Under the pieces are notes generated by a model, which was not told where the DNA came from, did not search any database, and saw only the letters and a program-made list of their open reading frames with translations. A stretch of DNA of 64,000 bases from positions 1-64,000 of the forward strand of contig CANCJV010000015.1 in NCBI GenBank assembly GCA_947378425.1. Reading direction: 5' to 3'. Positions 2,948-36,978 of the stretch are shown here, one piece after another. Position 1 is the stretch's first letter. Each line of letters starts with the position of its first letter. Source of the DNA: Synechococcaceae cyanobacterium. Lineage in GTDB: Bacteria; Cyanobacteriota; Cyanobacteriia; PCC-6307; Cyanobiaceae. The position numbers and the translations under genes were made by a program.

Positions 2948-3604
2948 CTGAAGCCACAGCTCCTGCTGCTCCTGGCGATCGCTGCCAGCATCCCCAGCGC
3001 TGCTCCTTGGCCCGCGGCCGCCGCGCCAGCCACCGAGTTCCGCGCCACCGTCCTCTCGATCGGCGACGGCGACACCCTGCGCGTCAGCCGCCAAGGCCTG
3101 CCGATCACCATCCGCCTGGCCTGCATCGACGCGCCGGAGATGGCCCAGAGCCCTTACGGCCAGCAGTCCCGCAACTATCTGCAGACCCGTCTGGCCAAGG
3201 GGCGGGAGGTCACGATCCTTCCTCACACCACTGATCGCTACGGCCGCACCGTGGCCGAGGTGATCAGCGACATCAACATCAACCTGGTGCTGGTGGAGGA
3301 CGGCCAAGCCTTTGCCTACCGGCAGTATCTCGGTGGTTGTAAGGCCAAGGAGTACCTCGATGCCGAGTACCGGGCCAGCCGCCACCGCTACGGGGTGTGG
3401 CAGGTGGAGGGCGGCATCACCCGTCCTTGGGACTATCGCCGGGGGCGCCGCAACCCTGTGATTCCCGATGGCACCACCCCCGGCGGCCGCCGCTACCGCT
3501 GCAAAGAGATCGGCTCCTATGCCAGGGCTCAGGAGTTGCTGCGCCAGGGGCACAGCTATCTCGACAGCAATGGTGATGGGGAGGCCTGCGAGAGCCTGCG
3601 CTGA
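2948..3604 (+). CDS. Secreted thermonuclease with C-terminal Excalibur domain
   Basis: The core matches staphylococcal-nuclease-type enzymes: IGDGDTLRV, RLACIDAPEM with the catalytic-site Asp and Arg region, and TDRYGRTVAEV carrying the second catalytic Arg. The last 37 residues form an Excalibur calcium-binding domain, ending D-S-N-G-D-G-E-A-C-E. It should cleave DNA or RNA outside the cytoplasm. No ATG precedes the conserved region except one inside it (3140). A CTG at 2948 starts a good signal peptide (MKPQLLLLLAIAASIPSAAP if read as Met). That start codon is my inference; a sequencing error upstream is the main alternative. Confidence 0.75.
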   Translation: MKPQLLLLLAIAASIPSAAPWPAAAAPATEFRATVLSIGDGDTLRVSRQGLPITIRLACIDAPEMAQSPYGQQSRNYLQTRLAKGREVTILPHTTDRYGRTVAEVISDININLVLVEDGQAFAYRQYLGGCKAKEYLDAEYRASRHRYGVWQVEGGITRPWDYRRGRRNPVIPDGTTPGGRRYRCKEIGSYARAQELLRQGHSYLDSNGDGEACESLR

Positions 3605-3825: not shown

Positions 3826-4191
3826 ATGCTGATCGGAACGGAACTACTGGCCAAGGTCAAAGAGCTCGGCGACGGCTCCAAGTCTGACCTGGTTCGTGCC
3901 GCTGGCTATGTCAGCACCAAGAAGGACGGCACCGAGCGGTTGAACTTTACCGCCTTCTATGAAGCCCTGCTCGAGGCCAAGGGCATGAACTTCGGCGCCG
4001 GCAGCAGTGGCGGCAAGGGCCGTCCCGGTCGCAGCCTTAGCTACGCCACCAAGATCCAGTTCAACGGCAACCTGATGGTGGGCAAGGCCTACACCGCTCA
4101 GCTGGGCCTGGAGCCCGGCGATGAATTTGAAATCAAGCTGGGCAGGAAGCAGATCAAGCTCATTCCCCTGGGGGCTGCCGAGGAGGAGTGA
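3826..4191 (+). CDS. cyAbrB-type transcriptional regulator
   Basis: The 121-residue protein is a typical cyanobacterial AbrB-like regulator. It has the N-terminal ELLAKVKELGDGSKSDLVRA and YVSTKKDGTERLNFTAFYEA segments and a C-terminal swapped-hairpin DNA-binding part (GNLMVGKAYTAQLGLEPGDE, then FEIKLGRKQIKLIPLG). In cyanobacteria these proteins bind DNA globally and influence nitrogen and carbon metabolism and stress genes. The length is normal for the family. A 29-codon reading frame at 3680-3769 upstream has no support. It is one of the best indicators of the host lineage. Confidence 0.9.
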   Translation: MLIGTELLAKVKELGDGSKSDLVRAAGYVSTKKDGTERLNFTAFYEALLEAKGMNFGAGSSGGKGRPGRSLSYATKIQFNGNLMVGKAYTAQLGLEPGDEFEIKLGRKQIKLIPLGAAEEE

Positions 4192-4445: not shown

Positions 4446-6212
4446 ATGCGGTCTCGATCGGCTCTTCTGAACGCCTCATCGGCGAGGTGGGTACCTGTGG
4501 CAGCATGCGCCACTGGTACCCAAACGACGCAGTCCTTGCCCTTGTCTGAGCTGGATGCGTTGTCGCGGCAGGAGCAGGTGGCGTTCATCCTGATCCAGTC
4601 GCTTGATGCCCTCCGGGATGGCCTGCGGCCGTTCGTCGTCAGCATCCTGGAAGAGAAGGAAGGCCCCCAGTGGTACGCCCATCCCCGGATCCAACGGATG
4701 CTGCCGGCCCCACCCACCTTGGTTGACGACGTTCCCTTTGGGCCTGATGAGCCCGTGCTGGACCTGGCGCTGCTGCTGAAGCTGATCGGATCGGATTGCT
4801 ACTGGTATCGCACCTTCCGCCAGCGATTGCCAGGGATCAGCCGCTGGCAGATCGACAGCTTGCGTGAGCTGCGCAACCGGGTCGCCCACAACGACGGTGA
4901 GGATCCTCTGCTCAAGGCATCTGCCCTGGTCCTTCCTTACCTGGGCACCATGGAGGAGCTGTTGCGAGTGGTCGGCAGTGAACAGGCTGCCGTCATCGGC
5001 CAGCTGCGATCGCGTCTGCAGCGTTCACGACGCCTGGCCATCAGGCAGCTGGTCCTCGGGCGCAGCCATTGGTCGCTGGCCTTCTGGCTGGTTGTCTTCG
5101 CTGCTTTGGGGGGCAGCCTCTGGCTGCTGGACTATGGGCGTTCCCCCCGGTTGTCTCGCGGCACGCTCGTCATCGGCACTCCCGACCGCCGCTTGGAGCG
5201 CTACGCCCCCCTGGAGCAAGACCTAGAGGCACGCCTACGCCCTGCCCAATTCTGGCGGGCCTTGCGCGGGGAGAAGATCGATGTGCGCATCGAAGGAGCA
5301 CGGTCTTATCCAGAGGCCGTTGCCCATCTGAGAGCCCGCCGCTGGGATGTGCTGCTCGGCTTCTCTCCAGTGGTCTCCATGGAAGCCGTCCATGCGGGCT
5401 ACAGGCCGATCGGTCGGATGTTCCCCCAGGAGCCTGAATACCGCTCCATTCTGTTCACACGAAAAGGATCATCCCTTCGTACTCTGCAGGACATTAAAGC
5501 CAGCACCCGAATTGCTCTCGGTGACTTTTTCTCGGCCACGAAGTATTACGTTCCGATGAGCTTACTGCAGGGTCGAAGTGCTCGCGTGATGGTCAACTTT
5601 TCAACCGCTGAAATCGCCGAGCAGGTGCGTAGTGGCAAAGCAGACGTCGGAGCGATGGCCGGCAATCCAGCGAGCTTTGAGCGTACCAATCCCGGGCTGA
5701 TGGTGCTCACCACGAGCGCTCCTCTACCGCCTTCGCTTGTAGCGCTTTCACCCGATCTGGCGGATTTGGATCGCGATCAGCTGCATAGGGCTCTGCTCAC
5801 TGCTCCTCTTTCGGTTCGCGGTGCATCGACAGCCAATTTTGGCCCGGGTCAGCCACCGGATTATCGGCGATTTGCCAGGCAGGTGGCTGAAGGGAAGGCA
5901 TTCAGCGCTTGCCTGCACAACCGAGGCGGCGTGCTGAATCTCCGCTGTCCAAACTCGGATCGGATCGAAGTCGTGGAGGGATGGATCGAAGACATCCGAC
6001 CAGAAGGCGAGCGCATCCGGCTCCAGCTCTCGACAGCAGACCACCGGCTTGTCGCATTGTTGATTGAGCATTCTCTCTTGGAGCAGAGCGCCGTGTTTCA
6101 GGTCCTGAATGAACTTAAGGGTCGTTCACTAAAAGTGATCGCATTGCAACAGATGTTCGCCACACAACCCGTTGTGCTCGAAACCCCCCACCAACTGGAG
6201 ATCAGGCCTTAA
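4446..6212 (+). CDS. Swt1-type HEPN domain fused to a PhnD-like sensor domain
   Basis: About 588 residues. After a poorly conserved leader, residues of about 30-185 look like a Swt1-type HEPN domain with the motif LRELRNRVAHNDG, which contains the R-x4-H signature of HEPN ribonucleases (here R-N-R-V-A-H). A single membrane helix follows (LAFWLVVFAALGGSLWLL, about 210-228). Residues of about 240-485 resemble PhnD/SsuA-type periplasmic binding proteins (GTLVIGTPDRR, DVLLGFSPVVSMEA, IALGDFFSATKYYVP, AEQVRSGKADVGAMAGN). A tail of about 100 residues is unassigned. The likely topology is a cytoplasmic HEPN and an outside ligand-binding part. A palindrome at 4488-4522 lies inside this reading, so translation may really begin at TTG 4536 or 4542; GTG 4398 is the longest form. 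No PhnC/PhnE transporter genes are nearby. Confidence 0.65.
   Translation: MRSRSALLNASSARWVPVAACATGTQTTQSLPLSELDALSRQEQVAFILIQSLDALRDGLRPFVVSILEEKEGPQWYAHPRIQRMLPAPPTLVDDVPFGPDEPVLDLALLLKLIGSDCYWYRTFRQRLPGISRWQIDSLRELRNRVAHNDGEDPLLKASALVLPYLGTMEELLRVVGSEQAAVIGQLRSRLQRSRRLAIRQLVLGRSHWSLAFWLVVFAALGGSLWLLDYGRSPRLSRGTLVIGTPDRRLERYAPLEQDLEARLRPAQFWRALRGEKIDVRIEGARSYPEAVAHLRARRWDVLLGFSPVVSMEAVHAGYRPIGRMFPQEPEYRSILFTRKGSSLRTLQDIKASTRIALGDFFSATKYYVPMSLLQGRSARVMVNFSTAEIAEQVRSGKADVGAMAGNPASFERTNPGLMVLTTSAPLPPSLVALSPDLADLDRDQLHRALLTAPLSVRGASTANFGPGQPPDYRRFARQVAEGKAFSACLHNRGGVLNLRCPNSDRIEVVEGWIEDIRPEGERIRLQLSTADHRLVALLIEHSLLEQSAVFQVLNELKGRSLKVIALQQMFATQPVVLETPHQLEIRP
4488..4522. promoter_or_regulatory. 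Operator-like palindrome at the HEPN-PhnD start
   Basis: The arms TGGGTACCTGTGGC and GCCACTGGTACCCA are complementary at 13 of 14 positions around a 7-base centre. The position, just before plausible TTG starts at 4536 and 4542, suits autoregulation of the HEPN-PhnD gene. The regulatory role is inferred from symmetry and position only. Confidence 0.4.
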
Positions 6213-9537: not shown

Positions 9538-9998
9538 TCCGGCCCCCCCGAGTGAGGGACCATTGCCGCCAGATCCGGGAAGCCCGTCATCTGATCCGCA
9601 CCCTGCGGCAGCAGATGTTGAAGGCAGGGGAGAGCCAGGCAGGGGCTCCGGGGCCTTTTGAGGCCGGTCATCAGGGCTCTGGTCTCAGCGCGGCAGCCGC
9701 CGAATCCGGTTTGCTCCAGGGTGGCAAAGGGTTCGGCGATGAAAGCATGCAATAACTGCATGGAGATGGAAGCGAAGAGAATGGGGCTGTTGGCGCTAAA
9801 GCCCCAGAGATGCTGTAAAACAAAGCTAAGTGCTGCTGGGCCACCCAACGCCATGGGCCGATTGACGCTGATCCATCGGCCTGGCGTGGCGGGTTTGGCT
9901 CCGTCTTGGTTGCTGCCAGCCCTTCCCTGCCAGCGGCAGCAGGGCGGCTGGGGTCGCCAGGCCGCCGCCGATCAGCAGGCCTGCAACCGGCTTTTCTG
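9538..9998 (+). other. Intergenic region before the defence operon
   Basis: This 460-base stretch has only weak reading frames (for example GTG 9552 to 9755, 67 codons) without recognisable features. It should carry the promoter of the downstream helicase-methyltransferase operon, but I see no convincing -35/-10 pair. Confidence 0.4.
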
Positions 9999-12900
9999 AT
10001 GGATGTCTTTTCGTTCCGCGACCAGGTCGTCGAGGACTACGGCCAGTTCAGCCGCAGTTTTACCAGCATCCAGGCTGAAGATATACGCGATTTCATTGAT
10101 GGTCGCTATAGCGATGAGGAATACTGGCCATCGCCTCTGATCCAGCTCAATCCCAGCTTTGTAGGAGGAGGCCGGATCGGTGAGCTGGTGGACCAGGGGG
10201 TACTGGATGCGGAGTGCCGCCAGATCTTCCGTTGGGGTAAAGACAATGGAGCAGGCGAGGAGTTGCAACTCCACCAGCACCAGCTGGAAGCCCTGCGCAT
10301 TGTGCTGGCTGGAGAGGGTGTCATCATCACGACCGGCACCAGCTCCGGCAAGTCGATCAGTTACATCCTGCCGATAGTGCAGCGCATCATCAAGCTACGA
10401 CAAGCAGGAGATCACAGCAAACGCATTCGGGCCATCATCATTTACCCGATGAATGCGCTGTGCAACAGCCAGTTCAAAGAGCTGGAAAAATACCTTTGCC
10501 TCGGCTATCCCGATGGCTGCGAAAAGGTCACCTTTGCCCGCTACACCGGCCAGGAGTCAACCCAGGAACGCGAAAAGATCCAGAACAGTCCGCCCGATAT
10601 TCTGCTCACGAACTACGTGATGCTGGAGTACATCCTTACCCGCCAGAACCCGCTCGACCAGCAGGTGATCCGCGCTGCCCAGGGACTGGAGTTTCTGGTA
10701 TTGGATGAGCTGCACACCTACCGCGGCCGGCAGGGAGCTGACGTGGCGATGCTGGTGCGGCGCGTGCGGCAACGGCTCTGCCCGCACAACAGCCTGATCT
10801 GTATCGGCACTTCGGCCACCATGGCCAGTGAGGGCAGCGCCGACGATCGCAATGCCGTGGTTGCCTCGATTGCCAGCAAGCTGTTCGGCACCGAAATCCC
10901 TGCTGACAACGTTGTCACCGAGACACTGGAGCGGGTCACCGAAGGTGAATTGCCCAGTGGCGAGGAGCTGCGCCAGGCCCTGGAGAACGGCCCTCCAGTG
11001 CAGGAGAGGAAGGGAGGAGATATTGCGAAACTGCGCTGTCACCCTCTCTCACGTTGGGTGGAACTGAAGCTCGGGCTGCGGCGAGAGGACGATCGTGCCG
11101 ATAGCAAATGGGTGCGCTCCAATCCTAGTGCCTTCCGCCAGGCTGCCGAAGAGCTGGCGACTCTCAGTGGCGTGGATCTCCAGCAAGCGCGGGATGGTTT
11201 GCGTGCCTTCCTGCTGGCCGCCTACCAGGTGGAGATTGCCCCCAACCGACGCTTCTTTGCCTTCCGCCTGCACCAGTTCGTCTCGGCAGGGGGTGATATC
11301 TATTGCACCCTGGAGGAACCGGGATCTCGTCATCCGACGCTCAAGGGCCAGATCTACCGGCCGGGTAGCAACCGCCAGGTCCTGCTGTTCCCGCTGGTGT
11401 TTTGCCGCAGCTGCGGGCAGGAGTTCCATCCGGTCTGGGCCCATCTGCAGAGCAAGCGGCCGGCGCGGCTGGAGCCCCGCGATTTCAGCGACCAGAGCAG
11501 CCTGAAGGACAAGGAGGTGCTGCCTGGCTACTTCATGCCCGACGCGAAAGGGGTCTATTCCACGGACGATCCGGAGCAGGCCAACTACCCCGATGGCTGG
11601 CTTGAGCCCAGCAAGGACGGAACATTGGCACTGCGCCAGCACTACCGCCAGGCGGCACCGGTGGCCTGTCGTTTCCGTCCGGATGGCCAGGCCAGCCCGG
11701 AGGGTCTGCCGGGTTGGTTCCTGAGCGGCAGCTTCCGGTTCTGCCCCAGCTGCGGGGTCGAGCACAACGTGCGCGGCAGCGAGTTCCGCAAGCTGTGCGG
11801 GCTGAGCTCGGAAGGGCGCAGTTCCGCTACCACCACCTTGAGCCTTGCGGTGCTGCGGCACCTGCTCAACTTCCCCGCCGACGAGCTACCGGATAACGCC
11901 CGCAAGCTGCTGGCCTTCAGTGACAACCGGCAGGACGCCTCCCTGCAGGCGGGGCACTTCAACGACTTCATGCGAGTGCTGCAGCTGCGGGCCGCTCTGG
12001 TGGCGGCACTACAGGCTCAGAGTGGACGGGAACTGAGCCTGGAAATCCTGGCCCAGGAAACGGAGAAAGCCCTGCGTCTGGAAGCCGACGACTTCATCGC
12101 CCAGAAGGACATTGTGCCGGCTGTGGAGGGCAAGTTCCGCAAGGCGTTACGGGAGGTGCTGGAGTACCGACTGGTGGTCGATTTGCGCCGGGGCTGGCGG
12201 CTCACCAATCCCAACCTTGAGCAGCTGCAGCTGCTGGAAATCGACTACGACGAGCTCGTCAACTGCGTGGAGGATCAGGCTCAGTGGTCGGGGCAGCATC
12301 CGTTGCTGGCTCAGTGCACCCCGATCGAGCGATATCTGATCTGCCACCGCCTGCTGGAGGAACTGCGAGAGCGGTTGGCGATTGAAACCAATGTCTTGTT
12401 TGCGGAGGAGTTCGAGCGACGGCGTCGGGCCTCGGCTGAGCTGGAAGAGGTCTGGTCGATCGGCAGCGACGAGAAGGGAGAGCTGGCACGCAGCGTGGTC
12501 TTTGAGACGGTGCCCCGTGATGCCCGTGGCAAGGGGTTCCGCGGCCTGGAGGGTCTCTCCTTACGGGGTGAATTCGGGCGCTGGCTGAAGGCCCGGGAAC
12601 GCTGGCTGTCCCAGGAGGATCTGCACGCGACGCTCAAGTGGAATGAAGCCCTCTATGAGCAGATCACCCGAGGGCTGGTGAGCGTCCTCGGCCGTTATCA
12701 CCTGCTAAAGGAGGTGGACCTGCGGCTGAGCCGTCGTGGCAGCGAACGCAAGACCGGTTGGCGACTGAGCAGCAGCGCTCTGCGCTGGACACTGACAAAG
12801 CCTGATGCCCAACCGGTGGATGTTTACCAGGCGGCGTTATGGCAGCAGCGACGGAACTCAGGTCGCCGTGGGCCAGTGAATGCCTACTTCCGCCATCTGT

Positions 12901-15479
12901 ATCACGATCTGGCCAGCACCCTGGGCCAGCAGGGCAGGCCGTTTTTGCAGACCCTGCTGGCGCGAGAGCACACGGCCCAGGTGGATCCGCTGGAGCGCGA
13001 GAAGCGGGAGGAGGCCTTCCGGGAAGCGCGGCTGCGACTGCTCTATTGCTCCCCGACGATGGAACTCGGGGTAGATATTGCCTCACTCAATACCGTCTAT
13101 ATGCGCAATGTGCCGCCAACGCCCGCCAACTATGCGCAGCGCAGTGGTCGTGCCGGTCGCAGTGGCCAGCCCGCGCTGGTACTGAGCTATTGCGGCGCAA
13201 CTTCACCGCATGATCAGTATTTCTTTTCTGCACCTGCCCGCATGGTCTCGGGAGCCGTCAGTGCGCCGACGCTGGAGCTGGCGAATGAGGAGCTGCTCAT
13301 CGCCCACTTCCGCGCCCTCTGGCTGGCCACCACGGGCAAGGCCCTACCCAGCAAGGTGAAGGACTTGGTCGAGCTGGACAGCGACACCAAACCGGTGTCC
13401 GCCGAGATTGCGGAGTCTCTGGACAGCCCAGCGGCGCGGGATCGTGCCCTCAAGGATTGCCAGGCGATCGTGGCGGATCTGCAGCACAATCAGTGGCTGG
13501 GACCTTCTCCTCCCCCCTGGCTCACGGACAGCTGGCTGGAGGCTCTGATCAGCGGCACCGGCCGGGACTTCGACGGCTCGCTCAACCGCTGGCGGGGGCT
13601 TCTCGATGCCGTCACCAGTCAGCTGGTTCAGACGGGCAAGGACATGGTCAATTACGCCCTGCCTGAGCGTGAGAAGAAGAGCGCCGAGCAGCGCCAGCGG
13701 GCGGCGCTCCTGCAGCGGGATCTGTTGCTGGCCTCCCGCAGCGGTCCCCAGGGCACGGGAGGTGACTTCAGCACCTATCGCTATCTGGCCAGCCAGGGGT
13801 TCATGCCGGGCTACAACTTCCCGCGGCTGCCGCTGTTGGCCTTCATCCCAGGCAGCCGCGAACAGGTGGGTGGTGGTACCTATCTCAGTCGGCCGCGATT
13901 TGTTGGCATCAGTGAGTTCGGGCCGCACTCATTGATCTATCACGAGGGCAACACCTACAAGGTGAGTGGCGCCATCCTGAACCTGCAGGAGCAGGCGGGC
14001 ACCGCAAACAAGACCCTGGCCACCCGCGATGCGCTGATCTGCGGCGCCTGTGGCCATGCCCATCTCGGCGAAGATGCCATACAGGAACTCTGCTGTCATT
14101 GCGGTGCCTCGCTCAAGTCGTTCCCCGATGGCACGGCACTGAAGATTCCAAGTCTGTATCAGATCGAGCAGGTCACCACCCGCCGGGCTGATCGGATCAC
14201 CTCCGACGATGAAGAGCGACAGCGGCTGGGCTATGAACTGCTCACCACCTATGAGTTTCCGAAGGACAACAATCAGGTACGGGTGGCGATCGCCGAGGTG
14301 AGTGTTGCTGGCAGGTCACTGCTGTCATTGAGCTATGGCGCTGCCACCCAGATCAGTCGCATCAATTTGGGCCGGCGGCGGCGAGAAAACCCCACCAACA
14401 TCGGCTTCCCGATCCATCCAAACAAGGGCACCTGGGGCAAGGAGTCCGATCTGCTGACGAGCAGCGACGAGGAGGTGGTCGATTCGGAACAGGGCTACGT
14501 GAAGATCACTCCCTATGTGCAAGACCGCAAGAACGCCCTGCTGCTGCGCTTCCACACCCAGTGGGAACCCCGGGATCTGATCACGGTGCGCCATGCGCTC
14601 AAGCGCGGCATTGAGGTGGCCTTCCAGCTCGACCCCAGCGAGATCGCGGCTGAGCTGATGCCGAATGAAGCCCAGGCCACAGCCCTGTTGATCTATGAAG
14701 CGGCGGAAGGTGGTGCCGGCGTGCTCAGCCGCCTGGTGGAAAGCCCCACAGCCCTGCAGGTGGTGGGCCGCACGGCCCTGGAGGTGTGCCACTGGGATTG
14801 GCAGGGGCCGTTGCCGCGGCAGGAGGTGGAGCTGAGCAACAGCGATGAGGAGTGCGAAGCCGGCTGTTACCGCTGCCTGCTCAGTTACAACAACCAGCGC
14901 GATCACGAGCTGATCGATCGTCGGCTGGGGTCCTTGAAGCAATTCCTGCTGGACCTGGCCCGCGCTGATGTGGTGCCCCAGGGCGGCCATGGCGGGCGCA
15001 GTGAGTTGATGGAGAGGCTGCTGCCCCTCAGCCAGAGCGGTCTGGAGCGCCTGTGGCTGCGCACCGTGCAGGAGCGCGGTTATCTCTTGCCTGATAAGGC
15101 CCAGTCGCCGGTGCCGGATCACTACGTGGTGCCGGACTTCACCTACAGCGATGCGCTTGGGCTGGTGTTCGTGGATGGGCCCCATCACAGCAAGCCGTTG
15201 CAACAGGAGTTGGATGCCCGCAAACGCCGCGAGCTGGATGACGCCAGCTATCACGTGGTCGTGTTCGGGCCGGAGCCCCGCGAGTGGGAGGCGGTGTTCG
15301 CCGAATACCGCTGGCTGTTCGGGGAGGGCCACGCCGAGCCGGCGGCTTCTGCCCCAGTGGCGGGAATGCCAGCTCCAGGGGCCTCACCAGCACAGGCCGA
15401 CATCGGCGAGCAGATCGCAGCGGTGTTCGCCGACCACGGCGATCTGCTCGGTGGCAGCCGCAGCAGTGGTCAACCATGA
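9999..15479 (+). CDS. Giant DEAD/DEAH helicase with DUF1998 and terminal nuclease-like domain (DrmA/DrmB-like)
   Basis: About 1826 residues. Helicase motifs are clear: TTGTSSGKS near residue 112, LDELHTYRGRQGADV near 235, IGTSATMA near 272 and QRSGRAGRSGQ near 1047. Zinc-knuckle pairs occur at CRSCG (about 469), CPSCG (about 583), CGACG (about 1348) and CCHCG (about 1366). A DUF1998-like region lies at about 1550-1650 (EAAEGGAGVLSRLV, CEAGCYRCLLSYNNQRDH). The C-terminus has PDF, then VFVDGPHH, then YHVVVFG, resembling Vsr-type PD-(D/E)xK nucleases. In DISARM, DrmA (helicase) and DrmB (DUF1998) are separate proteins; here they look fused and a nuclease is added. ATG 9999 is chosen; TTG 9906 would add 31 residues. 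It overlaps the next gene by 4 bases. It should translocate on DNA during phage restriction. Confidence 0.7.
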   Translation: MDVFSFRDQVVEDYGQFSRSFTSIQAEDIRDFIDGRYSDEEYWPSPLIQLNPSFVGGGRIGELVDQGVLDAECRQIFRWGKDNGAGEELQLHQHQLEALRIVLAGEGVIITTGTSSGKSISYILPIVQRIIKLRQAGDHSKRIRAIIIYPMNALCNSQFKELEKYLCLGYPDGCEKVTFARYTGQESTQEREKIQNSPPDILLTNYVMLEYILTRQNPLDQQVIRAAQGLEFLVLDELHTYRGRQGADVAMLVRRVRQRLCPHNSLICIGTSATMASEGSADDRNAVVASIASKLFGTEIPADNVVTETLERVTEGELPSGEELRQALENGPPVQERKGGDIAKLRCHPLSRWVELKLGLRREDDRADSKWVRSNPSAFRQAAEELATLSGVDLQQARDGLRAFLLAAYQVEIAPNRRFFAFRLHQFVSAGGDIYCTLEEPGSRHPTLKGQIYRPGSNRQVLLFPLVFCRSCGQEFHPVWAHLQSKRPARLEPRDFSDQSSLKDKEVLPGYFMPDAKGVYSTDDPEQANYPDGWLEPSKDGTLALRQHYRQAAPVACRFRPDGQASPEGLPGWFLSGSFRFCPSCGVEHNVRGSEFRKLCGLSSEGRSSATTTLSLAVLRHLLNFPADELPDNARKLLAFSDNRQDASLQAGHFNDFMRVLQLRAALVAALQAQSGRELSLEILAQETEKALRLEADDFIAQKDIVPAVEGKFRKALREVLEYRLVVDLRRGWRLTNPNLEQLQLLEIDYDELVNCVEDQAQWSGQHPLLAQCTPIERYLICHRLLEELRERLAIETNVLFAEEFERRRRASAELEEVWSIGSDEKGELARSVVFETVPRDARGKGFRGLEGLSLRGEFGRWLKARERWLSQEDLHATLKWNEALYEQITRGLVSVLGRYHLLKEVDLRLSRRGSERKTGWRLSSSALRWTLTKPDAQPVDVYQAALWQQRRNSGRRGPVNAYFRHLYHDLASTLGQQGRPFLQTLLAREHTAQVDPLEREKREEAFREARLRLLYCSPTMELGVDIASLNTVYMRNVPPTPANYAQRSGRAGRSGQPALVLSYCGATSPHDQYFFSAPARMVSGAVSAPTLELANEELLIAHFRALWLATTGKALPSKVKDLVELDSDTKPVSAEIAESLDSPAARDRALKDCQAIVADLQHNQWLGPSPPPWLTDSWLEALISGTGRDFDGSLNRWRGLLDAVTSQLVQTGKDMVNYALPEREKKSAEQRQRAALLQRDLLLASRSGPQGTGGDFSTYRYLASQGFMPGYNFPRLPLLAFIPGSREQVGGGTYLSRPRFVGISEFGPHSLIYHEGNTYKVSGAILNLQEQAGTANKTLATRDALICGACGHAHLGEDAIQELCCHCGASLKSFPDGTALKIPSLYQIEQVTTRRADRITSDDEERQRLGYELLTTYEFPKDNNQVRVAIAEVSVAGRSLLSLSYGAATQISRINLGRRRRENPTNIGFPIHPNKGTWGKESDLLTSSDEEVVDSEQGYVKITPYVQDRKNALLLRFHTQWEPRDLITVRHALKRGIEVAFQLDPSEIAAELMPNEAQATALLIYEAAEGGAGVLSRLVESPTALQVVGRTALEVCHWDWQGPLPRQEVELSNSDEECEAGCYRCLLSYNNQRDHELIDRRLGSLKQFLLDLARADVVPQGGHGGRSELMERLLPLSQSGLERLWLRTVQERGYLLPDKAQSPVPDHYVVPDFTYSDALGLVFVDGPHHSKPLQQELDARKRRELDDASYHVVVFGPEPREWEAVFAEYRWLFGEGHAEPAASAPVAGMPAPGASPAQADIGEQIAAVFADHGDLLGGSRSSGQP

Positions 15480-18439
15480 GCACCTCCACCCCCCACACCC
15501 CCGGCTCGATCGTGCGGGCCCGTGGCCGCGAGTGGGTGGTGCTGCCCAATCCGGCGCCCCAGACTCTCAAGCTGCGGCCCCTGGGCGGCGGCGAACAACA
15601 GGTGGCGACTCTGTTTCTGCCGCTGGAGGGCCACGACGTGGCGCCAGCCACCTTCCCCTGGCCCGATCCTGGCCAGAGCGGTTCCCAGAGCTCGGCGCTG
15701 TTGATGCGCGATGCGCTGCTGCTCAAGCTCCGCGCTGGCGCGGGGCCGTTTCGCAGCCTGGGCAACCTGGCCTTGGAGCCTCGGGCCTATCAGCTGGTGC
15801 CGCTGCTAATGGCGCTCAAGCAGAGCATCACGCGGCTGCTGATCGCCGATGAGGTGGGTCTGGGGAAGACGGTGGAGGCGTTACTGATCGCCCGAGAACT
15901 GCTCGATCGCGGCGAGATCCGCACGATCACCGTGATCTGCCCGCCCCATCTGTGCGAGAAGTGGCGCAGCGATATGGCCCAGCAATTCCACCTGGCGGCG
16001 GAGGTGGTGCGGCCCGGCACGGTGGGACGCCTGAGCAAGGACCTGCCGGTGGGGCACTCCCTGTTTGAGGTTTATCCGTTCACGGTGGTGAGCCTGGACA
16101 CGATCAAGCGCGACGACTACCGCGATGGCTTTCTGCGGGGCTGCGGTGATTTCGTGATCGTCGATGAGGCCCACGCCTGCACCAGCGGCAAGGGCCGGGG
16201 CCGGCATCAGCGCTATGAACTGCTGCGGGGCCTGGCTGCTCGATCCGATCGCCATTTGCTGTTGCTCACCGCCACGCCCCACAGCGGCGACAGCGAAGGG
16301 TTCAACCATCTCCTGGGGCTGCTGAACCCGAAGTTCAACGCCCTGGGCACCATGGCCGAGGGCCCCGAACGCGAGAGTCTGCGGGAGGAACTGGGCCAGC
16401 ACTTCGTGCAGCGACGCCGCCAGGACATCCGGGCGGAATGGGGCAGTGAGGGGGCCGACTTCCCGGATCGGGAGACACGGGAGAGCACCTACGAGCTGAG
16501 CGGCGACTGGGGCGCCCTGTTTCACGATGTGCTCGATTACGCCCGTGCCCTGGTGAGGCGCAGTGCCGGCCAGAGCCGGCTGCGGCAGCGGATGAGCTGG
16601 TGGGCGGCGCTGGCCTTGCTGCGCTGCATCAGCAGCAGCCCGGCGGCAGCGGCCGCCTCGTTGCGCACCAAGCTGGCGGGGCTCTCGAGCGATGGCGAAG
16701 CCGGCCTGAGCGAAGAGCAACAGCTCAGCGAGCTGGAGGCCCTGGCCAGTCAGGGGGTGCTCGATGGACTGGATGAAGCGATGAGCGAAGAGGAGGCCGC
16801 CCCGGGAGCTGACCTGGCGGTCGAGGCCGATCGGCAGCAGCTGGAGGGAATGATCAGCCGCGCTGAGGCTTTGCGGGGCCCGGCCTCGGACCCCAAGCTG
16901 CGGCAATTGATCCGCCAAGTGCAGGCCCTGCTGAGCGAGGGCTATCGGCCGGTGATTTTCTGCCGCTTCCGCCCCACCGCCCATTACCTGGCGGAGCAGC
17001 TCACGGCGGCCCTGCCGAAGCGTTCGGTGGTGATCCGGGCGGTGACCGGCGAGCTACCTCCGGAGGAGCGGGTGCAACGCATCGCCGAACTGGAAGCAGA
17101 AGCCTTTGCTGCCGACAAACCGAAGACCCCGGTGCTGGTGGCCACCGACTGTCTGTCGGAGGGGATCGACCTGCAACAGAGCTTTGATGCGGTGGTGCAC
17201 TACGACCTCTGCTGGAATCCCACCCGCCACGAGCAGCGCGAAGGCCGGGTGGATCGCTTTGGCCAACCGCGGCCGGTGGTGCGTGCGCTGATGCTGCACG
17301 GCGCCTGTAAAGACCCGAGCCGCCGTAACCCGGTGGATGCCCGGGTGCTGGCGGTGATCCTCAACAAGGAGAAGCTGATCCGCAAGGAGCTGGGCGTGAG
17401 CGTGCCGGTGCCGGGTGACATGAACTCGATCACTCAGGCGGTGCTCGCCGATGTGCTCGGGGAATCAGTGCAGCAACTGGGCCTCGATCTGGGCTTCAGC
17501 GGTGCCACGGCTGGGGGCATGCCACCGGTGCTGGCGATGGCGGGCTGGGAGGCGACGTTGGATCAGCAGTGGCAGAGCGCTAAGGAGAACGCCCGCCAGA
17601 GCCAGACGATCTTTGCCCAGCGGCGCCTAAGGCCTGAAGATGTGCTGCCGGAATGGCAGAAGAGCAAGGAGGCCCTGGGGGATCAGACCGCCGTGACGCG
17701 GCTGCTGCTGGAGGCCTGCTCGCGCCTGCGCCTACCCCTGCCCAGAAGCGTCAACGGCAACTGGCTGTTTGACCTGGCCCAGATCCCGCCTGAGCGAAGA
17801 GCGTTGCGGGAGCGGCTCGAGGCGCAGGGTCTGGAGGGAACCCTGAGCTGCGCCACGGCACTGCCCTGCCGTGATGGCGCCCAGTTGCTCACCCGCTCCC
17901 ATCCGCTGGTAGTGGAACTGGCGGAGTTCGTGGCCGAACGGGCCTTGAGTGGCGAAGAGCCCGAGCTGGCGGCCCGCAGTGCTGTGGTGCGCACCACGGC
18001 GGTCAGCCGCCGCACCACCATCTTGTTGTTGCGGTTGCGGCACCAGATCCAGCAGGAACGCCGCACCGAAAGCGGCTACACCCCGATGCTGCCGCTGCTG
18101 GTGGAGGAATGTCTCACCGTGGTGCGCCGCGAGGAGGGATTGCAGCTGCTCACGGAAGCGGAAGCCCTGGCCCTGCTACAGGCCCCACCAGCCGGCAATG
18201 TGCAGGCCCCGCAGCGCCAGATGGAACTGGAGCGGGCCCTGGCCGCCCTGCCCGAACTAGAGGCTGACTTGCGGCTGCTGGCGCAGGACCGCGCCGCGCA
18301 GGCTGAAGACGATCACCGCCGGGTGCGCCAGGCGGCGGTGGGCAGCAGCGGTGCCCTGCGGATGCGCTTTCGCTGCGAGCCAAACCTGCCGGTGGATGTG
18401 ATCGGCCTTTTCGTGCTGCTGCCGGCACCGAAGCTGTAG
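15476..18439 (+). CDS. SNF2-type helicase (DrmD-like)
   Basis: The 987-residue protein shows a complete superfamily 2 helicase core of the SNF2/HepA type: LIADEVGLGKTVEALLIARE (about residue 121), IVDEAHACTSGKGRGRHQRY (about 227), LTATPHSGDSEGFNHLLGLL (about 263), VATDCLSEGIDLQQSFD (about 555) and QREGRVDRFGQPRPVV (about 587). The C-terminal 350 residues are helical and unassigned. Class 1 DISARM uses such a helicase, DrmD, beside its methylase. ATG 15476 overlaps the previous TGA (ATGA), and the methyltransferase starts 2 bases after its TAG stop, so the three proteins are translated together. A general RapA-like role is less likely given this context. Confidence 0.75.
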   Translation: MSTSTPHTPGSIVRARGREWVVLPNPAPQTLKLRPLGGGEQQVATLFLPLEGHDVAPATFPWPDPGQSGSQSSALLMRDALLLKLRAGAGPFRSLGNLALEPRAYQLVPLLMALKQSITRLLIADEVGLGKTVEALLIARELLDRGEIRTITVICPPHLCEKWRSDMAQQFHLAAEVVRPGTVGRLSKDLPVGHSLFEVYPFTVVSLDTIKRDDYRDGFLRGCGDFVIVDEAHACTSGKGRGRHQRYELLRGLAARSDRHLLLLTATPHSGDSEGFNHLLGLLNPKFNALGTMAEGPERESLREELGQHFVQRRRQDIRAEWGSEGADFPDRETRESTYELSGDWGALFHDVLDYARALVRRSAGQSRLRQRMSWWAALALLRCISSSPAAAAASLRTKLAGLSSDGEAGLSEEQQLSELEALASQGVLDGLDEAMSEEEAAPGADLAVEADRQQLEGMISRAEALRGPASDPKLRQLIRQVQALLSEGYRPVIFCRFRPTAHYLAEQLTAALPKRSVVIRAVTGELPPEERVQRIAELEAEAFAADKPKTPVLVATDCLSEGIDLQQSFDAVVHYDLCWNPTRHEQREGRVDRFGQPRPVVRALMLHGACKDPSRRNPVDARVLAVILNKEKLIRKELGVSVPVPGDMNSITQAVLADVLGESVQQLGLDLGFSGATAGGMPPVLAMAGWEATLDQQWQSAKENARQSQTIFAQRRLRPEDVLPEWQKSKEALGDQTAVTRLLLEACSRLRLPLPRSVNGNWLFDLAQIPPERRALRERLEAQGLEGTLSCATALPCRDGAQLLTRSHPLVVELAEFVAERALSGEEPELAARSAVVRTTAVSRRTTILLLRLRHQIQQERRTESGYTPMLPLLVEECLTVVRREEGLQLLTEAEALALLQAPPAGNVQAPQRQMELERALAALPELEADLRLLAQDRAAQAEDDHRRVRQAAVGSSGALRMRFRCEPNLPVDVIGLFVLLPAPKL

Positions 18440-18441
18440 AC

Positions 18442-21400
18442 ATGCCCCGCCGCCGCTCAGCCACCCTTCAGTTCAACGCCATCCGGCTGGTGGGTGGATT
18501 GTTGCCGGCGTCGTTGCTGGAGCAGATCGCTCGCCAGGAGGCGCCGCACCAGAAGGCGGCCGACTACGGCCTGGCCAAGAACCTGCGGCTGCAGGTGGCG
18601 GTGGATCAGGCCTGGAGCTACGCCCGGGCGCTGTGGCAGGAGGCCCAGGAACTGCGCAGCCGGGGGGACGACACGCCGTGGCGCCTGTGGTTCAGCTCTC
18701 GTCTGCTGCGGGAGGTGTTCGGCTGGGACGACCTGGCCAGCTGTGAGCCGCACCGGATCGAAGAGAGGTTGTACCCGATCAGCCACCAGGCCTTTGGGGG
18801 CACGGTGCCCCTGGTGCTCACGTCGGTGGAGAGCGAGCTGCTCGATCAGGGCAGCAAGGCCTACGGGCAGGACGGACGCCGCCGCTCACCCCACAGCTGC
18901 CTGCAGGAGTGCCTCAACGCCGATGACAACAGCAACTGGGGCGTGCTCTGCAACGGCAGCAGCCTGCGCCTGCTGCACGACAACCCAGCCCTGCTGAAGC
19001 CGGCCTACGTGCAGGTGGGACTGGAGGCGATCTTGGATGGGGGATTGTTTGACGAGTTCGCGGTGCTCTGGCTGCTGCTGCACGGCAGCCGCTTCCGCTG
19101 CGCTGAAGCCGGTCCCAATGCCCAGCCCACCTGCCCGCTGGATGGCTGGCGGGAGCTGGGGCAACAGAGCGGCGAGCGGGCCCTGACCCGGCTGCGTGAT
19201 GGCGTGCAGCGGGCCCTTGAGGAACTGGGCGAGGGTTTTCTCAGGCATCCCGCCAATGGCGACCTGGTGACCAGGCTCGAGAGAGGTGACTTGAGCACTA
19301 CGGAGTTCTTCAGACAGCTGCTGCGGCTGGTGTACCGGCTGCTGTTCCTGTGTGTAGCGGAAGACCGCCAGCTGCTGTTCTCACAGAGCGTGCCTTTGGA
19401 GCTGCAACAGGTGTACCGCGAGGGCTACAGCCTCAGCCACCTGCGCGATCTGGCGATCCGCAGCGGCAGCCAGGAACACCAACACAGCGATCTCTGGAAA
19501 GTGCAGCGGCTGGTGTTCGCCCAGTTGCAGGAGGACGGCTCCAGCCTGGGGCTGCCGGCACTGGGCGGCCTGTTCAATGACGACCGCTGCCGTGATCTCG
19601 ATCCAGCGGAGTTGAGCAATGCGGCGCTGCTGGCAGCGGTGCGGGCGATCGGCTGGTTCTACGACGAGCAGAGCCAGAGCCGTACGCGCATCAACTACCA
19701 GGCGATGAACACCGAGGAGTTCGGCAGCGTCTACGAAAGCCTGTTGGAGCTCCACCCCCAGGTGCGCGCCAGTGGCGGCAGCCTGCGCTTCTCGTTGGGC
19801 GGTGTGGCCGGCAGCGAACGCAAGACCAGCGGCAGTTACTACACGCCGGACGATCTGGTGCGGCTGTTGATCCACTCGGCCCTGCTGCCGGTGATCAGCG
19901 ATCGCCTGAGCAAGGCCGACACAACCGAAGCCAAGGAAGCGGCCCTGCTGGCGATCCGGGTGCTGGATCCGGCTTGCGGCAGCGGCCATTTTTTGTTGGC
20001 GGCTGCGCGGCGGCTGGCCTTGGAGCTGGCGCGCCTGCTCGCCGGTGATGACGAACCCAGCGAAGAGCTGCGCCGGCAGTGCCTGCGGCGGGTGGTGGCC
20101 CATTGCCTCTATGGGGTCGACAAGAACCCGATGGCGGTGGAGCTCTGCAAGGTGGCGTTGTGGATGGAGGCGATCGAACCGGGCAAGCCCCTGGGCTTCC
20201 TCGATGCCCATATCCAGTGCGGCGATTCTCTGGTGGGGGTGTTCGATCTCCAGATGCTGGACGCTGGCATCCCCGATGGGGCCTACAAACCGCTGACCGG
20301 GGACAACAAGACGATCTGCACCAGCCTGAAGAAGAAAAACCAGACGTTTGTGGTGAAAGGTCAGGCGGATCTGTTCACCGCCCAAGCGATGACCGTGGCA
20401 CTGCCGAGTGCCACGGGTTTCGAGGCGATCGAGGAAAACGATCTGGCGGCGGTTCGCCGCAAAGAACAGGCCTATCAGGCCTGGCGCAACGATCCAGCCA
20501 TCCGCCAGGAGCTGCAGAGGGCCGATGCCTACACCGCCGCCTTCTTCCTGCCCAAGCAGGAAGGCAAGGAGCACCTGGTGCCCGTATCTCAGAACCTGGA
20601 TGCCATCCAGCGAGGAGCAGCGCTTTCAGGCTCGATGGCAGAAGCTGTTGCCAGGGCAGCGGAGAACTTTCGCTTCCTCCACTGGCATCTGGCCTTTCCG
20701 GATGTGATGCGCGCTGGAGGCTTTGATTGCCTATTGGGCAATCCACCCTGGGAGCGGATCAAGCTGCAAGAGAAGGAGTTCTTCGCGGCGAGATCAGAGG
20801 CCATTGCCACAGCTCAGAACAAGGCGGCACGGGAGCGGCTGATCCAGGCCCTCAGAGCACCAGAGGCCTCGGAGGTGGATCAGCGCCTGGTGCAGGAGTT
20901 TGAGCTCGCCAAGCGGGAGGCTGAGGGAAGCGGCGAGTTCATCCGCGGCTCCGGTCGATTTGGCCTCACTGCGGTGGGGGATCTGAACACCTATGCACTG
21001 TTCGCAGAGCTGTTTCTGAACCTCATTGGCCCTGGTGGGAGGGCTGGGTTGATCGTGCCTACGGGGATAGCTACAGACAACAGCACCAAGGCGTATTTCG
21101 ATGCGATTTCCAGTGGCAACAGGCTGATCAGTCTTTACGACTTCCGAACAGGGCCTGGATTGTTCTCTGAAATCGGCCACCAGCGCTTCAAGTTCTGCTT
21201 GATCACGCTCGGACAAGCGGAAAAGACCGATTTTGTCTTCTTTGCCCTGCAAGTGCCTGAGCTCGCGGATCACCGTCGACACTTCACCCTTGAGAGCGAC
21301 GATTTCTCTCTTCTGAACCCCAACACCCGTACCTGTCCAGTGTTCCGCAGCCAGATGGATGCGGAGCTCACCAAGAAGATCTACAGGCAGGTGCCGGTGC

Positions 21401-22308
21401 TGATCCATGAGGCACTGGGGGAGCAGGGCAATCCCTGGGGCATCAAGTTCATGACGATGTTCCACATGTCGAACGACAGCCATCTGTTTTTCGGCGAACC
21501 CGCCTCCGATCGACTACCGCTCTACGAAGCCAAGCTGATCCACCACTACGACCACCGCTGGGCCACCTACGGTGCCGATGGCTCCAGCCGTGATGTAACG
21601 CTTGATGAGAAGCAGGATCCTGCGTTTCAGGTGACCCCTCGCTACTGGGTGGAGCGGGACGAGGTGGAGGCAAGGCTTAGGGCACAGGGCTGGGATCGGC
21701 AGTGGCTAATGGGGTGGCGAGATATCTGCCGTGGGACTGATGAGCGAACAGTAATTTCATCAGTCTCGCCAATGGCAGGGGCCGGAAATAAGATGCCTTT
21801 AATTGTTCCAAAAGGAGCTATTTCTAATGTGAGCAACATGGCAGTGCTAGCTGGATGCCTCTCGTCTCTTGTGTATGACTTTTGCGCTAGACAGAAGATC
21901 GGTGGTACCACTATGAACTACTTTATCTTCAAGCAGATCCCGGTTCTCCCTCCAAACTTTTTTGTCCCATCCGCCATCGACTTCATCCACCCCCGCGTCC
22001 TCAAGCTCACCTACACCAGCCACGACCTCAAGCCCTGGGCCGATGACCTCGGCTACGACGGCCCACCCTTCCGCTTCGATCCCGAGCGCCGATCCCTGCT
22101 GAGGGCCGAACTCGATGCCTTCTACGCCCACCTCTACGGCCTCAGCCGCGATGAGCTGCGCTATATCCTCGATCCCGCCGATGTGATGGGCCCCGATTAC
22201 CCCAGCGAAACCTTCCGCGTGCTCAAGAACAACGAGATTCGCCAGTTCGGTGAGTACCGCACCCAGAGACTGGTGCTGGCGGCGTGGGATCGTCTGTTTG
22301 GATCATGA
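18442..22308 (+). CDS. Large Eco57I/DrmMI-type DNA adenine methyltransferase
   Basis: The 1288-residue protein has the N6-adenine methyltransferase motifs VLDPACGSGHFLL (SAM binding, about residue 506) and LLGNPPWERIKLQ (catalytic NPPW, about 764). About 480 residues precede motif I. The C-terminal part from about 900 contains the target-recognition area, with blocks such as GRAGLIVPTGIATDNSTKAY and FIFKQIPVLPPNFF. Size and motif order fit PglX, Eco57I and DrmMI types rather than a simple solitary methylase. It should mark host DNA so that the two helicases spare it; the recognised sequence cannot be read from the gene. It overlaps the McrB gene by 4 bases (ATGA). DNA at 21.7-21.9 kb is more A+T-rich than its surroundings, as expected of a swapped specificity segment. 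Confidence 0.8.
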   Translation: MPRRRSATLQFNAIRLVGGLLPASLLEQIARQEAPHQKAADYGLAKNLRLQVAVDQAWSYARALWQEAQELRSRGDDTPWRLWFSSRLLREVFGWDDLASCEPHRIEERLYPISHQAFGGTVPLVLTSVESELLDQGSKAYGQDGRRRSPHSCLQECLNADDNSNWGVLCNGSSLRLLHDNPALLKPAYVQVGLEAILDGGLFDEFAVLWLLLHGSRFRCAEAGPNAQPTCPLDGWRELGQQSGERALTRLRDGVQRALEELGEGFLRHPANGDLVTRLERGDLSTTEFFRQLLRLVYRLLFLCVAEDRQLLFSQSVPLELQQVYREGYSLSHLRDLAIRSGSQEHQHSDLWKVQRLVFAQLQEDGSSLGLPALGGLFNDDRCRDLDPAELSNAALLAAVRAIGWFYDEQSQSRTRINYQAMNTEEFGSVYESLLELHPQVRASGGSLRFSLGGVAGSERKTSGSYYTPDDLVRLLIHSALLPVISDRLSKADTTEAKEAALLAIRVLDPACGSGHFLLAAARRLALELARLLAGDDEPSEELRRQCLRRVVAHCLYGVDKNPMAVELCKVALWMEAIEPGKPLGFLDAHIQCGDSLVGVFDLQMLDAGIPDGAYKPLTGDNKTICTSLKKKNQTFVVKGQADLFTAQAMTVALPSATGFEAIEENDLAAVRRKEQAYQAWRNDPAIRQELQRADAYTAAFFLPKQEGKEHLVPVSQNLDAIQRGAALSGSMAEAVARAAENFRFLHWHLAFPDVMRAGGFDCLLGNPPWERIKLQEKEFFAARSEAIATAQNKAARERLIQALRAPEASEVDQRLVQEFELAKREAEGSGEFIRGSGRFGLTAVGDLNTYALFAELFLNLIGPGGRAGLIVPTGIATDNSTKAYFDAISSGNRLISLYDFRTGPGLFSEIGHQRFKFCLITLGQAEKTDFVFFALQVPELADHRRHFTLESDDFSLLNPNTRTCPVFRSQMDAELTKKIYRQVPVLIHEALGEQGNPWGIKFMTMFHMSNDSHLFFGEPASDRLPLYEAKLIHHYDHRWATYGADGSSRDVTLDEKQDPAFQVTPRYWVERDEVEARLRAQGWDRQWLMGWRDICRGTDERTVISSVSPMAGAGNKMPLIVPKGAISNVSNMAVLAGCLSSLVYDFCARQKIGGTTMNYFIFKQIPVLPPNFFVPSAIDFIHPRVLKLTYTSHDLKPWADDLGYDGPPFRFDPERRSLLRAELDAFYAHLYGLSRDELRYILDPADVMGPDYPSETFRVLKNNEIRQFGEYRTQRLVLAAWDRLFGS

Positions 22309-24521: not shown

Positions 24522-24571
24522 AAACAGCCCCAGGTACTCAGTCCGGCTGGCGGCGGCAGCAGAATGGGCCC

Positions 24572-24919
24572 ATGCCAACAGCCACAACAGCACCGATGGA
24601 GCAGCGGCTTGCCGGAATGGCCGCTCAGATCCGCCAGCTGATCCCGGCGGCAGAGGTGCGCCTGTTCGGCTCCAGGGCCAGTGGCCAGGCCCGCCCCGAC
24701 TCCGACGTCGACCTGCTGATCACCGCGCCAGACGCCTGGCTGGCGCAACGTGATCGTTTTGCCCTCCTCGGTGAATTGTGGGGCGCTGTGGCCCAGCCCG
24801 ATCTGTCGGTCGACCTCGTGCTCCACTCCAGCAGCGAAGCCAGCCGCCGAGCCCAGGAGCCGGGTTCTCTCGTCTCCGAGGCCCTCCTTCACGGCATGTT
24901 GCTTGATGGCCAGCCCTGA
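24572..24919 (+). CDS. MNT-type nucleotidyltransferase (antitoxin-like)
   Basis: The 115-residue protein has the minimal nucleotidyltransferase motif RLFGSRASGQARPDSDVDLL, with GSxxxG and two catalytic aspartates, and a later aspartate in LSVDLVLHS. Such proteins pair with HEPN toxins and inactivate them by adding AMP. Start choice: ATG 24572 or 24596; an open frame from 24515 gives a basic, unlikely leader. Its 3' end overlaps the HEPN-like gene by 14 bases. It is unusual to find this pair between mcrB and mcrC, and because the partner is truncated this may be an orphan antitoxin. Confidence 0.75.
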   Translation: MPTATTAPMEQRLAGMAAQIRQLIPAAEVRLFGSRASGQARPDSDVDLLITAPDAWLAQRDRFALLGELWGAVAQPDLSVDLVLHSSSEASRRAQEPGSLVSEALLHGMLLDGQP

Positions 24920-25136
24920 AGCCACGCCACCACCAACGCACGACCTCGCCCGTCTGCTGTTGCTGCTCAAGGAAGCCGGCGTCGACATCACCGAGCTACT
25001 CCCGCTTCGGGCCTTCACCACCTTTGCGGTCCAGTACCGCTATGACGACGAACCAGAGGAGCTCAACCTGGATCGCAGCGACTGGTGCAATCGCGCCGAA
25101 AACTTGATCGAGCAGGTACAGGAGAGGAATCGGTGA
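24906..25136 (+). pseudogene. C-terminal half of a HEPN toxin
   Basis: The 76-residue product begins MASPEATPPPTHDLARLLLL, which matches the middle of HEPN proteins (the T-H-D-L block and following helices, ending AVQYRYDDEPEELN). The usual first half, with the two long helices carrying the F-H-A-Q-Q-A-A-E-K-like motif, is absent, and I find no trace of it in the other frames upstream. It is therefore probably a decayed toxin, or a minimal domain kept for binding. It starts inside the nucleotidyltransferase gene and ends 7 bases before the mcrC TTG start. Confidence 0.55.
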
Positions 25137-25143
25137 GCGGCCT

Positions 25144-26259: not shown

Positions 26260-26294
26260 TCCCCGTTGATCCCCGTTGATCCCCGTTGATCCCT
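26255..26294. repeat. Tandem 10-bp repeat (GTTGATCCCC x4)
   Basis: Four head-to-tail copies of GTTGATCCCC (the last ends in T) fill the space between mcrC and the next gene. The first copy supplies the mcrC stop. Copy-number change would alter the spacing to the following ATG at 26296, so slipped-strand variation of its expression is possible but unproven. Confidence 0.85.
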
Positions 26295-26295
26295 C

Positions 26296-36549: not shown

Positions 36550-36978
36550 TCATGGCGCCAGCACCACGGCGGTAACGGTGACGGCAATGGCGGCCTGAGC
36601 GGTGCCGGTGTTCCGCACCAACACCCGCAGCAGAGGGGGGCTGGTGGGAGCCGTGGCCCCGTCGCTGCAGAAGTAGGTTCCGCCGGGCGGCGCTGTGATG
36701 GTCAGAGCAGCGGCGGTGGTGGCCAGATCGAGCAGCACCCCGCTCCCCGGGGCTGGGTCCTGGGTGATGGGGCGGCTGCCATCGCCCTCGCGGGCGGCCA
36801 CCGAGCTGTAGAAGCTCAGCCAGCCCGGGGCATCGGTGCTGATCGCTAGGAAATGGCCCAGCCGCCCCAGACCCGCCAGATCCAGCAAGGCACTGGCCCC
36901 CGGCAACAGCGGCGTGGTGGTGGCACTCACGCTGACTGATTGACCGGGGACCTGGGTGCGCGGCAGCCAGCTGGCCAT
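36550..36978 (-). CDS. Small virion-associated protein
   Basis: The 142-residue protein is beta-rich and Ala/Thr-rich (ISTDAPGWLSFYSSVAAREG, then LVRNTGTAQAAIAVTVTAVV). This composition suits a small decoration or receptor-binding domain. Its stop is directly adjacent to the next start at 36549. No family is recognised. Confidence 0.6.
   Translation of the reverse strand: MASWLPRTQVPGQSVSVSATTTPLLPGASALLDLAGLGRLGHFLAISTDAPGWLSFYSSVAAREGDGSRPITQDPAPGSGVLLDLATTAAALTITAPPGGTYFCSDGATAPTSPPLLRVLVRNTGTAQAAIAVTVTAVVLAP

Follow-up and report, generated by a model that had tools for sequence, protein, structure and literature searches.

Layout of the gene and its protein

The window, by which we mean the whole stretch of DNA analysed here (64,000 nucleotides), comprises bases 1–64000 of contig C15 (68,032 bases) in a cyanobacterial genome of 3.63 Mb. 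It carries a gene for a putative membrane protein having a predicted HEPN domain, a single hydrophobic helix and a PhnD-like binding domain, the latter followed by a small C-terminal domain, with the features listed below.

3826..4191, + strand: AbrB-like regulator gene (Pfam PF14250), upstream of the receptor gene
4542..6212, + strand: gene for the putative HEPN-TM-PhnD receptor, 556 aa with a TTG start; the homologous start gives an equal length in L057 and L056
4596..4973, + strand: Swt1-type HEPN domain, predicted cytoplasmic (Pfam PF18731; model pLDDT 88.8)
4872..4889, + strand: R-N-x3-H motif (R111, N112, H116), from aligned Swt1 HEPN sequences
5073..5129, + strand: single membrane helix (hydrophobic stretch; helix 179–200 in the model)
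5151..5909, + strand: PhnD-like binding domain, predicted periplasmic (Pfam PF12974; Foldseek and VIA matches)
5910..6209, + strand: C-terminal beta-rich domain, from the invariant Cys457 through Cys469 to the end (model; without Pfam match)
9996..15479, + strand: DruE-like helicase (PADLOC DruE3, E 3.5e-95), 3.8 kb downstream of the receptor gene

The original prediction had placed a HEPN domain, a membrane helix and a PhnD-like domain in this order, and our analyses agreed with it. HEPN_Swt1 (PF18731, E 6.5e-10, 39.7 bits against a cut-off of 27.5, found again using the 556-aa form) and Phosphonate-bd (PF12974, E 4.1e-21, 75.9 bits against a cut-off of 27) were the only Pfam families above cut-off in the window protein, the HEPN match coming first, with one hydrophobic stretch between the two domains (residues 178–196 of the 556-aa form). 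The R-x4-H motif that had been noted ahead of the helix, RNRVAH, corresponds to residues 111–116 of that form. The C-terminal domain behind the PhnD part, at about residues 457–556, gave no Pfam match. Modelling with AlphaFold2 resulted in a mean pLDDT of 88.0 and a pTM of 0.65 for the whole protein (56 sequences), and in a helical structure with a mean pLDDT of 88.8 for the HEPN part (28 sequences). The claimed ATG start at 4446 had to be revised: the gene probably starts with TTG at 4542, since reading from TTG, GTG and GTG, respectively, gives a length of 556 aa for each of the proteins of the window, L057 and L056, and the frame of L056 has no start codon between its last upstream stop and this GTG. 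A near-perfect inverted repeat with GGTACC ends was seen by eye at about 4490–4520, between the AbrB-like gene and the TTG start, and is preceded by the upstream ATG.

Alignment of 28 Swt1 HEPN sequences revealed the R-N pair in 28/28 and the H in 27/28, L040 being the exception. All three residues were retained in each of the six HEPN-TM-PhnD proteins described below, so that the R/H pair, the loss of which in homologues had been named as evidence against the original prediction, is conserved. For two of these proteins the Swt1 HEPN match reached 118.4 bits (E 2.5e-34; L110/L146) and 47.9 bits (E 1.9e-12; L106/L142). Comparison of the HEPN model with solved structures using Foldseek gave no match at E <= 0.001. 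The model aligned with Csm6' (8pe3) at Z 5.0 (rmsd 3.2, 98 aligned), tied with unrelated helical bundles, while Csm6, which we take to be a HEPN protein, and MtlR were found at Z 3.5 and Z 3.4, respectively, amid unrelated helical proteins. A sequence search of the PDB with the HEPN domain yielded no relative, the best match (E 0.078) being an unrelated cellulase. As Csm6' was tied with unrelated bundles in the structure comparison, the HEPN fold and the Swt1-type identity predicted for this domain rest on the Pfam match. In Anantharaman et al. 2013 (PMC3710099), MtlR is counted as a HEPN protein and the eukaryotic Swt1 HEPN domain is judged inactive.

The fold assignment of the binding domain came from several structures, with residues 206–456 of the model aligning with XAC2383 (5ub3; Z 18.7, rmsd 3.0, 241 aligned), ArrX (6x9g; Z 17.7, rmsd 3.3, 231 aligned), PtxB (5lv1; Z 17.7, rmsd 4.1, 241 aligned) and PhnD (3p7i; Z 16.0, rmsd 5.2, 242 aligned). 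Foldseek concurred on a PhnD-like fold, with PhnD, PtxB, ArrX and XAC2383 among its matches; the cut-off of the NCBIfam PhnD model (TIGR03431) was missed by the window protein (16.8 bits against 261.1). The loop aligned with STS of PhnD, which presumably holds the anion in that protein, reads S331-A332-T333. Ser331 was retained in 52/56 sequences of the module formed by the PhnD and C-terminal domains, and position 334 was Ser or Thr in 50/56 and Lys in the four picocyanobacterial proteins. From the PhnD-like fold we infer that the ligand of the predicted outer domain is probably an oxyanion, and because Lys334 lies beside the anion loop in the picocyanobacterial clade, the ligand there may differ. 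The proposed lack of transporter genes nearby is shown for ABC transporters only: the genome has 57 ABC_tran matches, and contig C15 carries none of them, but a FUSC-type protein is encoded at 477–1562 of the window. The best Phosphonate-bd match of the genome was found on contig C31, with an ABC ATPase beside it.

Relatives and a sensor module with swapped partners

Searching for the same domain order, as had been suggested together with the original prediction, we found six HEPN-TM-PhnD proteins in three cyanobacterial lineages, four in picocyanobacteria, two of these being nearly identical, and a single one in each of two distant lineages. Full-length relatives were present in 3/42 genus genomes, the window included, and any match in 6/42; L056 came from a record set other than these 42 genomes, and L055 was taken as the same sequence as L058 (G403:C162). 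The picocyanobacterial relatives were 99, 67 and 70% identical to the window protein. Searching with the plain sequence across 386 genomes from this phylum gave no full-length match besides the window's own, and L146 and L142 were found by profile search alone, in which at most five candidates were scored per genome, so that the counts are lower bounds. Carriage of the full protein by phage or plasmid was considered and rejected, with no relative in viral_contigs using a pattern scan and tblastn, and with seven matching plasmid records, none of which covered over 80% of the query. In L071 (G403:C132) we noted what is left of a second copy, namely part of its C-terminal end, which is 61% identical and contains an in-frame stop.

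Among divergent picocyanobacterial pairs (63–70% identity), synonymous exceeded non-synonymous change in every domain, with dS saturated in several stretches. The HEPN domain gave dN/dS of 0.159/1.19, 0.198/0.90 and 0.220/1.22 in three such pairs, the window–L058 pair being too close to be informative, and the linker together with the helix was the fastest-evolving part.

Profile A2, made from 16 rows covering the PhnD domain and the C-terminal domain, was run against 388 genomes belonging to one cyanobacterial order and gave at least 52 matches at E 1.5e-81 or better, from 48 genomes; the next match was at 7.4e-44, from which point on shorter PhnD-like proteins were found. Judging from these sequences, the PhnD-plus-C-terminal module is a predicted sensor common to several domain types behind a membrane helix. 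It occurred together with a Ser/Thr kinase in 14 proteins given this label (on the basis of Pfam in 8 and of similarity in 6), with NERD (L015/L139 and L124), with a CHAT-like domain (L118, E 6.7e-15; L116, 9.1e-5 and thus below cut-off; L119, by similarity), with an adaptor-like domain without Pfam match (L103, L112 and L117) and with HEPN_Swt1 (L110/L146 and L106/L142, the two recognised among the 52 matches), and some module proteins had no N-terminal domain at all. A C-terminal SNase was found in four module proteins (L123 and L014/L130 by Pfam, L121 and L128 by tblastn). The family, having one predicted outer sensor exchanged among several conflict-type domains, is a stronger finding than the single protein.

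Some individual members may be mentioned. A NERD-TM-PhnD-SNase fusion of 815 aa (Pfam) is encoded on a Nostoc cf. commune plasmid (L124:5065-7509), adjoining a gene annotated as 5'-nucleotidase, lipoprotein e(P4) family; L059:5768-8593 encodes DUF4145, then a Ser/Thr kinase, a membrane helix and the PhnD module; and a small adaptor-like domain precedes the helix or a kinase in L103, L150, L163, L061, L062 and L104. In a tree of 59 modules, with the interrupted module of L169 left out and the picocyanobacterial branch being long and of odd composition, well-supported branches gave at least three changes of the HEPN label, although three such changes may also be one gain and two losses.

Several indirect lines, from which we infer the topology, came from the same set of proteins. 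Cys457 and Cys469 were invariant in 56/56 module sequences, which fits an oxidising environment. Of the 31 solo or SNase forms listed, 5 had a lipobox pattern close to the N-terminus, with L151 having a similar motif outside the pattern, and the homologues carried kinase, NERD or CHAT-like domains at the position of HEPN, and SNase behind the sensor. The invariant Cys pair and the lipobox-bearing solo homologues, together with these swapped domains, suggest that the sensor lies outside and the HEPN domain inside, on opposite sides of the membrane rather than on the same side, the latter being the arrangement that had been named as incompatible with the original prediction. The number of K+R in the 15 residues before/after the helix was 4/3 in the window protein, 4/2 in L057, 4/2 in L056, 3/4 in L146 and 2/1 in L142, by which the positive-inside charge rule weakly favours HEPN inside, L146 opposing it.

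Neighbouring genes and the defence island

An AbrB-like match was found upstream of the receptor gene in 4/4 picocyanobacterial loci, and the genome has eight AbrB-like genes. Since it contains an in-frame stop in L056 (about 4993–5310) and has only 31–32 residues left in L057 (13070–13168), the AbrB-like gene is linked yet no strict partner, and was rejected as a necessary one.

On the other side of the receptor gene, consecutive genes at 9996–27165 of the window form a defence island; they encode a DruE-like helicase, a DpdE/DrmD-like helicase, a type IIG-like methylase, a McrB-like AAA protein, McrC and a BnzA-like protein. We do not assign the island to any one named system; no Druantia components besides DruE were among the best 25 matches listed for nine window proteins, and neither the window protein nor L146 was among the PADLOC listings.

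DruE-like genes (tblastn E <= 1e-8) were found at 3/6 HEPN loci, 0/50 other module loci and 0/33 ordinary PhnD control loci, a count in which two of the three positive loci (the window and L142) supplied queries and in which the flanks usually covered about 6 kb in each direction, less where a contig ended and more in the case of the window and L056. As the window and L056 are related, the association represents two independent cases. In L056 the DruE-like gene lies about 6.1 kb downstream and is cut by the contig end, and in L142, a separate HEPN-PhnD lineage, a DruE-like helicase of 1,910 residues (E 5.4e-127) is found 0.16 kb off, tail to tail. No DruE-like gene was seen within about 3.4 and 3.3 kb downstream in L057 and L058, respectively. 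Such genes were scarce in the genomes, with one in G000, two in G702 and one each, on other contigs, in G420 and G403, the latter also having a further weak match in a 725-aa frame; G471 had none at E <= 1e-10. Next to L146, 0.14 kb downstream and on the same strand, we found a BnzB-like gene of 319 aa (E 1.1e-62, profile 202–503 of 504), which is the sole BnzB match in that genome, this locus having supplied the query. On the module tree the HEPN form occupies three places, with defence genes nearby in each. GajB-like UvrD helicases were present at 5/56 module loci, all adaptor-bearing, and at 0/33 controls (the query locus L061 included), with a sixth adaptor locus, L104, having a GajB-like fragment only. 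Further downstream in the window, at 34385–44084, minus-strand genes with collagen-like repeats and a possible capsid protein look, to our eyes, phage-like.

A proposed receptor, its alternatives and known systems

We consider it fairly probable that the window protein is a single-pass membrane receptor, in which an oxyanion-binding outer part signals to a Swt1-type HEPN domain that cuts RNA in stress or phage defence, and this is the best supported of the readings considered. Such a receptor would reside in the inner membrane, with the outer PhnD-like domain and the small C-terminal domain binding an oxyanion such as phosphate, a phosphate ester, a phosphonate or a nucleotide, and a ligand-induced change would be relayed through the one helix to the cytoplasmic HEPN domain. 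Active HEPN enzymes cut RNA as dimers, and the domain would likewise, as a dimer, cut RNA and so slow or stop the cell. The protein belongs to a cyanobacterial family whose one sensor module is exchanged among domains of kinase, NERD, CHAT-like, adaptor-like and HEPN type, and its HEPN form most likely serves stress or phage defence. For the window protein itself, RNase activity, ligand control, switch direction and physiological role are assumptions. The original prediction, of a one-protein receptor converting an outside signal into RNA cleavage inside, was right on the content of the protein and plausible with regard to function.

Adaptor-like small domains at the position of HEPN in other family members bring up another possibility, namely that the HEPN domain serves here for dimerisation or as an adaptor rather than as an enzyme, with the ligand assembling a complex with a separate effector such as the DruE-like helicase or BnzB. 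A profile of the adaptors from six PhnD receptors, with the L142 helicase excluded, matched the N-terminal part of that helicase, which is DruE-like and encoded next to the HEPN-PhnD gene (E 1.4e-12), and in L059 the kinase comes after DUF4145, a domain that according to PMC3710099 overlaps with a HEPN family. The DruE-like helicase of the window itself, however, did not match this profile, which at E <= 0.1 had no further match in the examined loci beyond its own training proteins, and the R, N and H, retained by each of the six HEPN-PhnD proteins, would be dispensable in a mere adaptor; we judge this reading to be unlikely. We are similarly doubtful about a nutrient receptor that would sense phosphate, nucleotide or phosphonate and tune translation to phosphorus supply, having no defence role. 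The best fold matches, being PhnD-like proteins that bind phosphate, phosphite or phosphonate, would suit it, as would acid phosphatase genes or fusions and SNase genes or fusions, each found at 7/59 module loci and 0/33 controls, counts that are partly circular because query-supplying loci were counted in (five of the seven for acid phosphatase, i.e. L059, L060, L121, L123 and L124, and for SNase the window, with its gene at 3140–3604 upstream of the receptor gene). Against such a nutrient receptor speak the defence genes among the neighbours of the HEPN forms and their patchy occurrence, at full length in 3/42 genus genomes.

The broken and truncated AbrB-like genes of L056 and L057, and the C-terminal remnant with its in-frame stop in G403:C132, could also be seen as signs that a HEPN gene and a binding protein were fused by chance, or that their fusion has decayed, with no receptor function. 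The full-length frames are open, however, synonymous change exceeds non-synonymous in every domain at 63–70% identity (with dS saturated in several stretches), and HEPN-TM-PhnD proteins occur in two further lineages; we regard such a fusion as highly improbable. Extending the single-pass receptor that we favour, the PhnD-type module could serve cyanobacteria as a periplasmic plug-in sensor of nucleic-acid breakdown products, or of another phosphorylated sign of attack, beyond the membrane, wired to interchangeable conflict effectors such as a HEPN RNase, a kinase, NERD, a CHAT-like domain or helicase partners, with the window protein being a transmembrane immune receptor analogue that fires an RNase and is coupled to a DruE-type helicase; this extension is speculative and, we believe, rather unlikely. 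A defined outer domain of a familiar binding fold, the six natural HEPN versions and the swapped versions provide built-in comparisons, which make ligand, topology and RNase control directly testable, and the DruE-like/BnzB link suggests that envelope sensing may feed defence systems usually considered intracellular.

That one bacterial protein could turn an outside signal into RNA cleavage inside was predicted in 2013 (PMC3710099), and no worked example was found in the open literature searched. That paper describes a predicted cytoplasmic HEPN domain on a membrane helix with possible external sensing and predicted stimulus-dependent RNA degradation, in three bacterial membrane arrangements: a WP-signature helix with a DUF4145-type HEPN, a HEPN domain C-terminal to one helix after an all-alpha domain, and a HEPN domain and a Zn ribbon around two helices, one group belonging to the Abi2/SWT1 family. 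The window protein is alike in its predicted cytoplasmic HEPN domain joined to a membrane helix with possible external sensing, but has an N-terminal HEPN domain, one helix and then a PhnD-like domain, an outer domain found in none of the groups as described there. Neither PhnD together with HEPN nor Phosphonate-bd together with Pkinase was found in the open-access literature, and PMC2877116 makes no mention of the four binding-protein terms looked for. The HEPN-TM-PhnD arrangement is thus new relative to the open literature searched, with membrane HEPN sensing itself already predicted.

Other known systems share parts of this architecture. Caspase-TM-PBP proteins of conflict System 4 (Kaur et al. 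2020, PMC7159879) likewise combine a conflict-type domain, a helix and an extracellular binding-protein domain; System 4 is, as described there, a two-gene and mostly actinobacterial system of EACC1 and a caspase-superfamily peptidase with no HEPN domain described, the word 'phosphonate' is absent from the text, and the window protein has no caspase-superfamily or cyclase domain above the Pfam cut-off. Histidine kinases such as TtrS (PMC5408782, which lists 838 histidine kinases with PhnD-like sensors) also have a PhnD-like domain on a membrane protein as a likely oxyanion sensor, but there the output is phosphotransfer to a response regulator rather than a HEPN domain. ArrX, AioX, XAC2383, PtxB and PhnD are alike in fold and anion-loop region, although they are separate proteins, whereas the window domain is fused and has no ABC partner on the contig.

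Other cyanobacterial Swt1-type HEPN proteins, many of them in frames of 1,100–1,180 aa, share HEPN_Swt1 with R-N-x3-H, but no membrane helix was found after HEPN in 47 of the 51 loci, many frames ending at the locus edge; the four rows with such a helix were the HEPN-PhnD proteins L048, L049 (the window) and L050, and the multi-helix L047. Another Swt1-type HEPN domain, from a genome in the same genus, is encoded by L063:209-1333; several hydrophobic helices come after it, but no binding domain. In L041:1465-2691, L053 and L052, finally, a Swt1-type HEPN domain is found in fusion with a part that we take to resemble RNase III.
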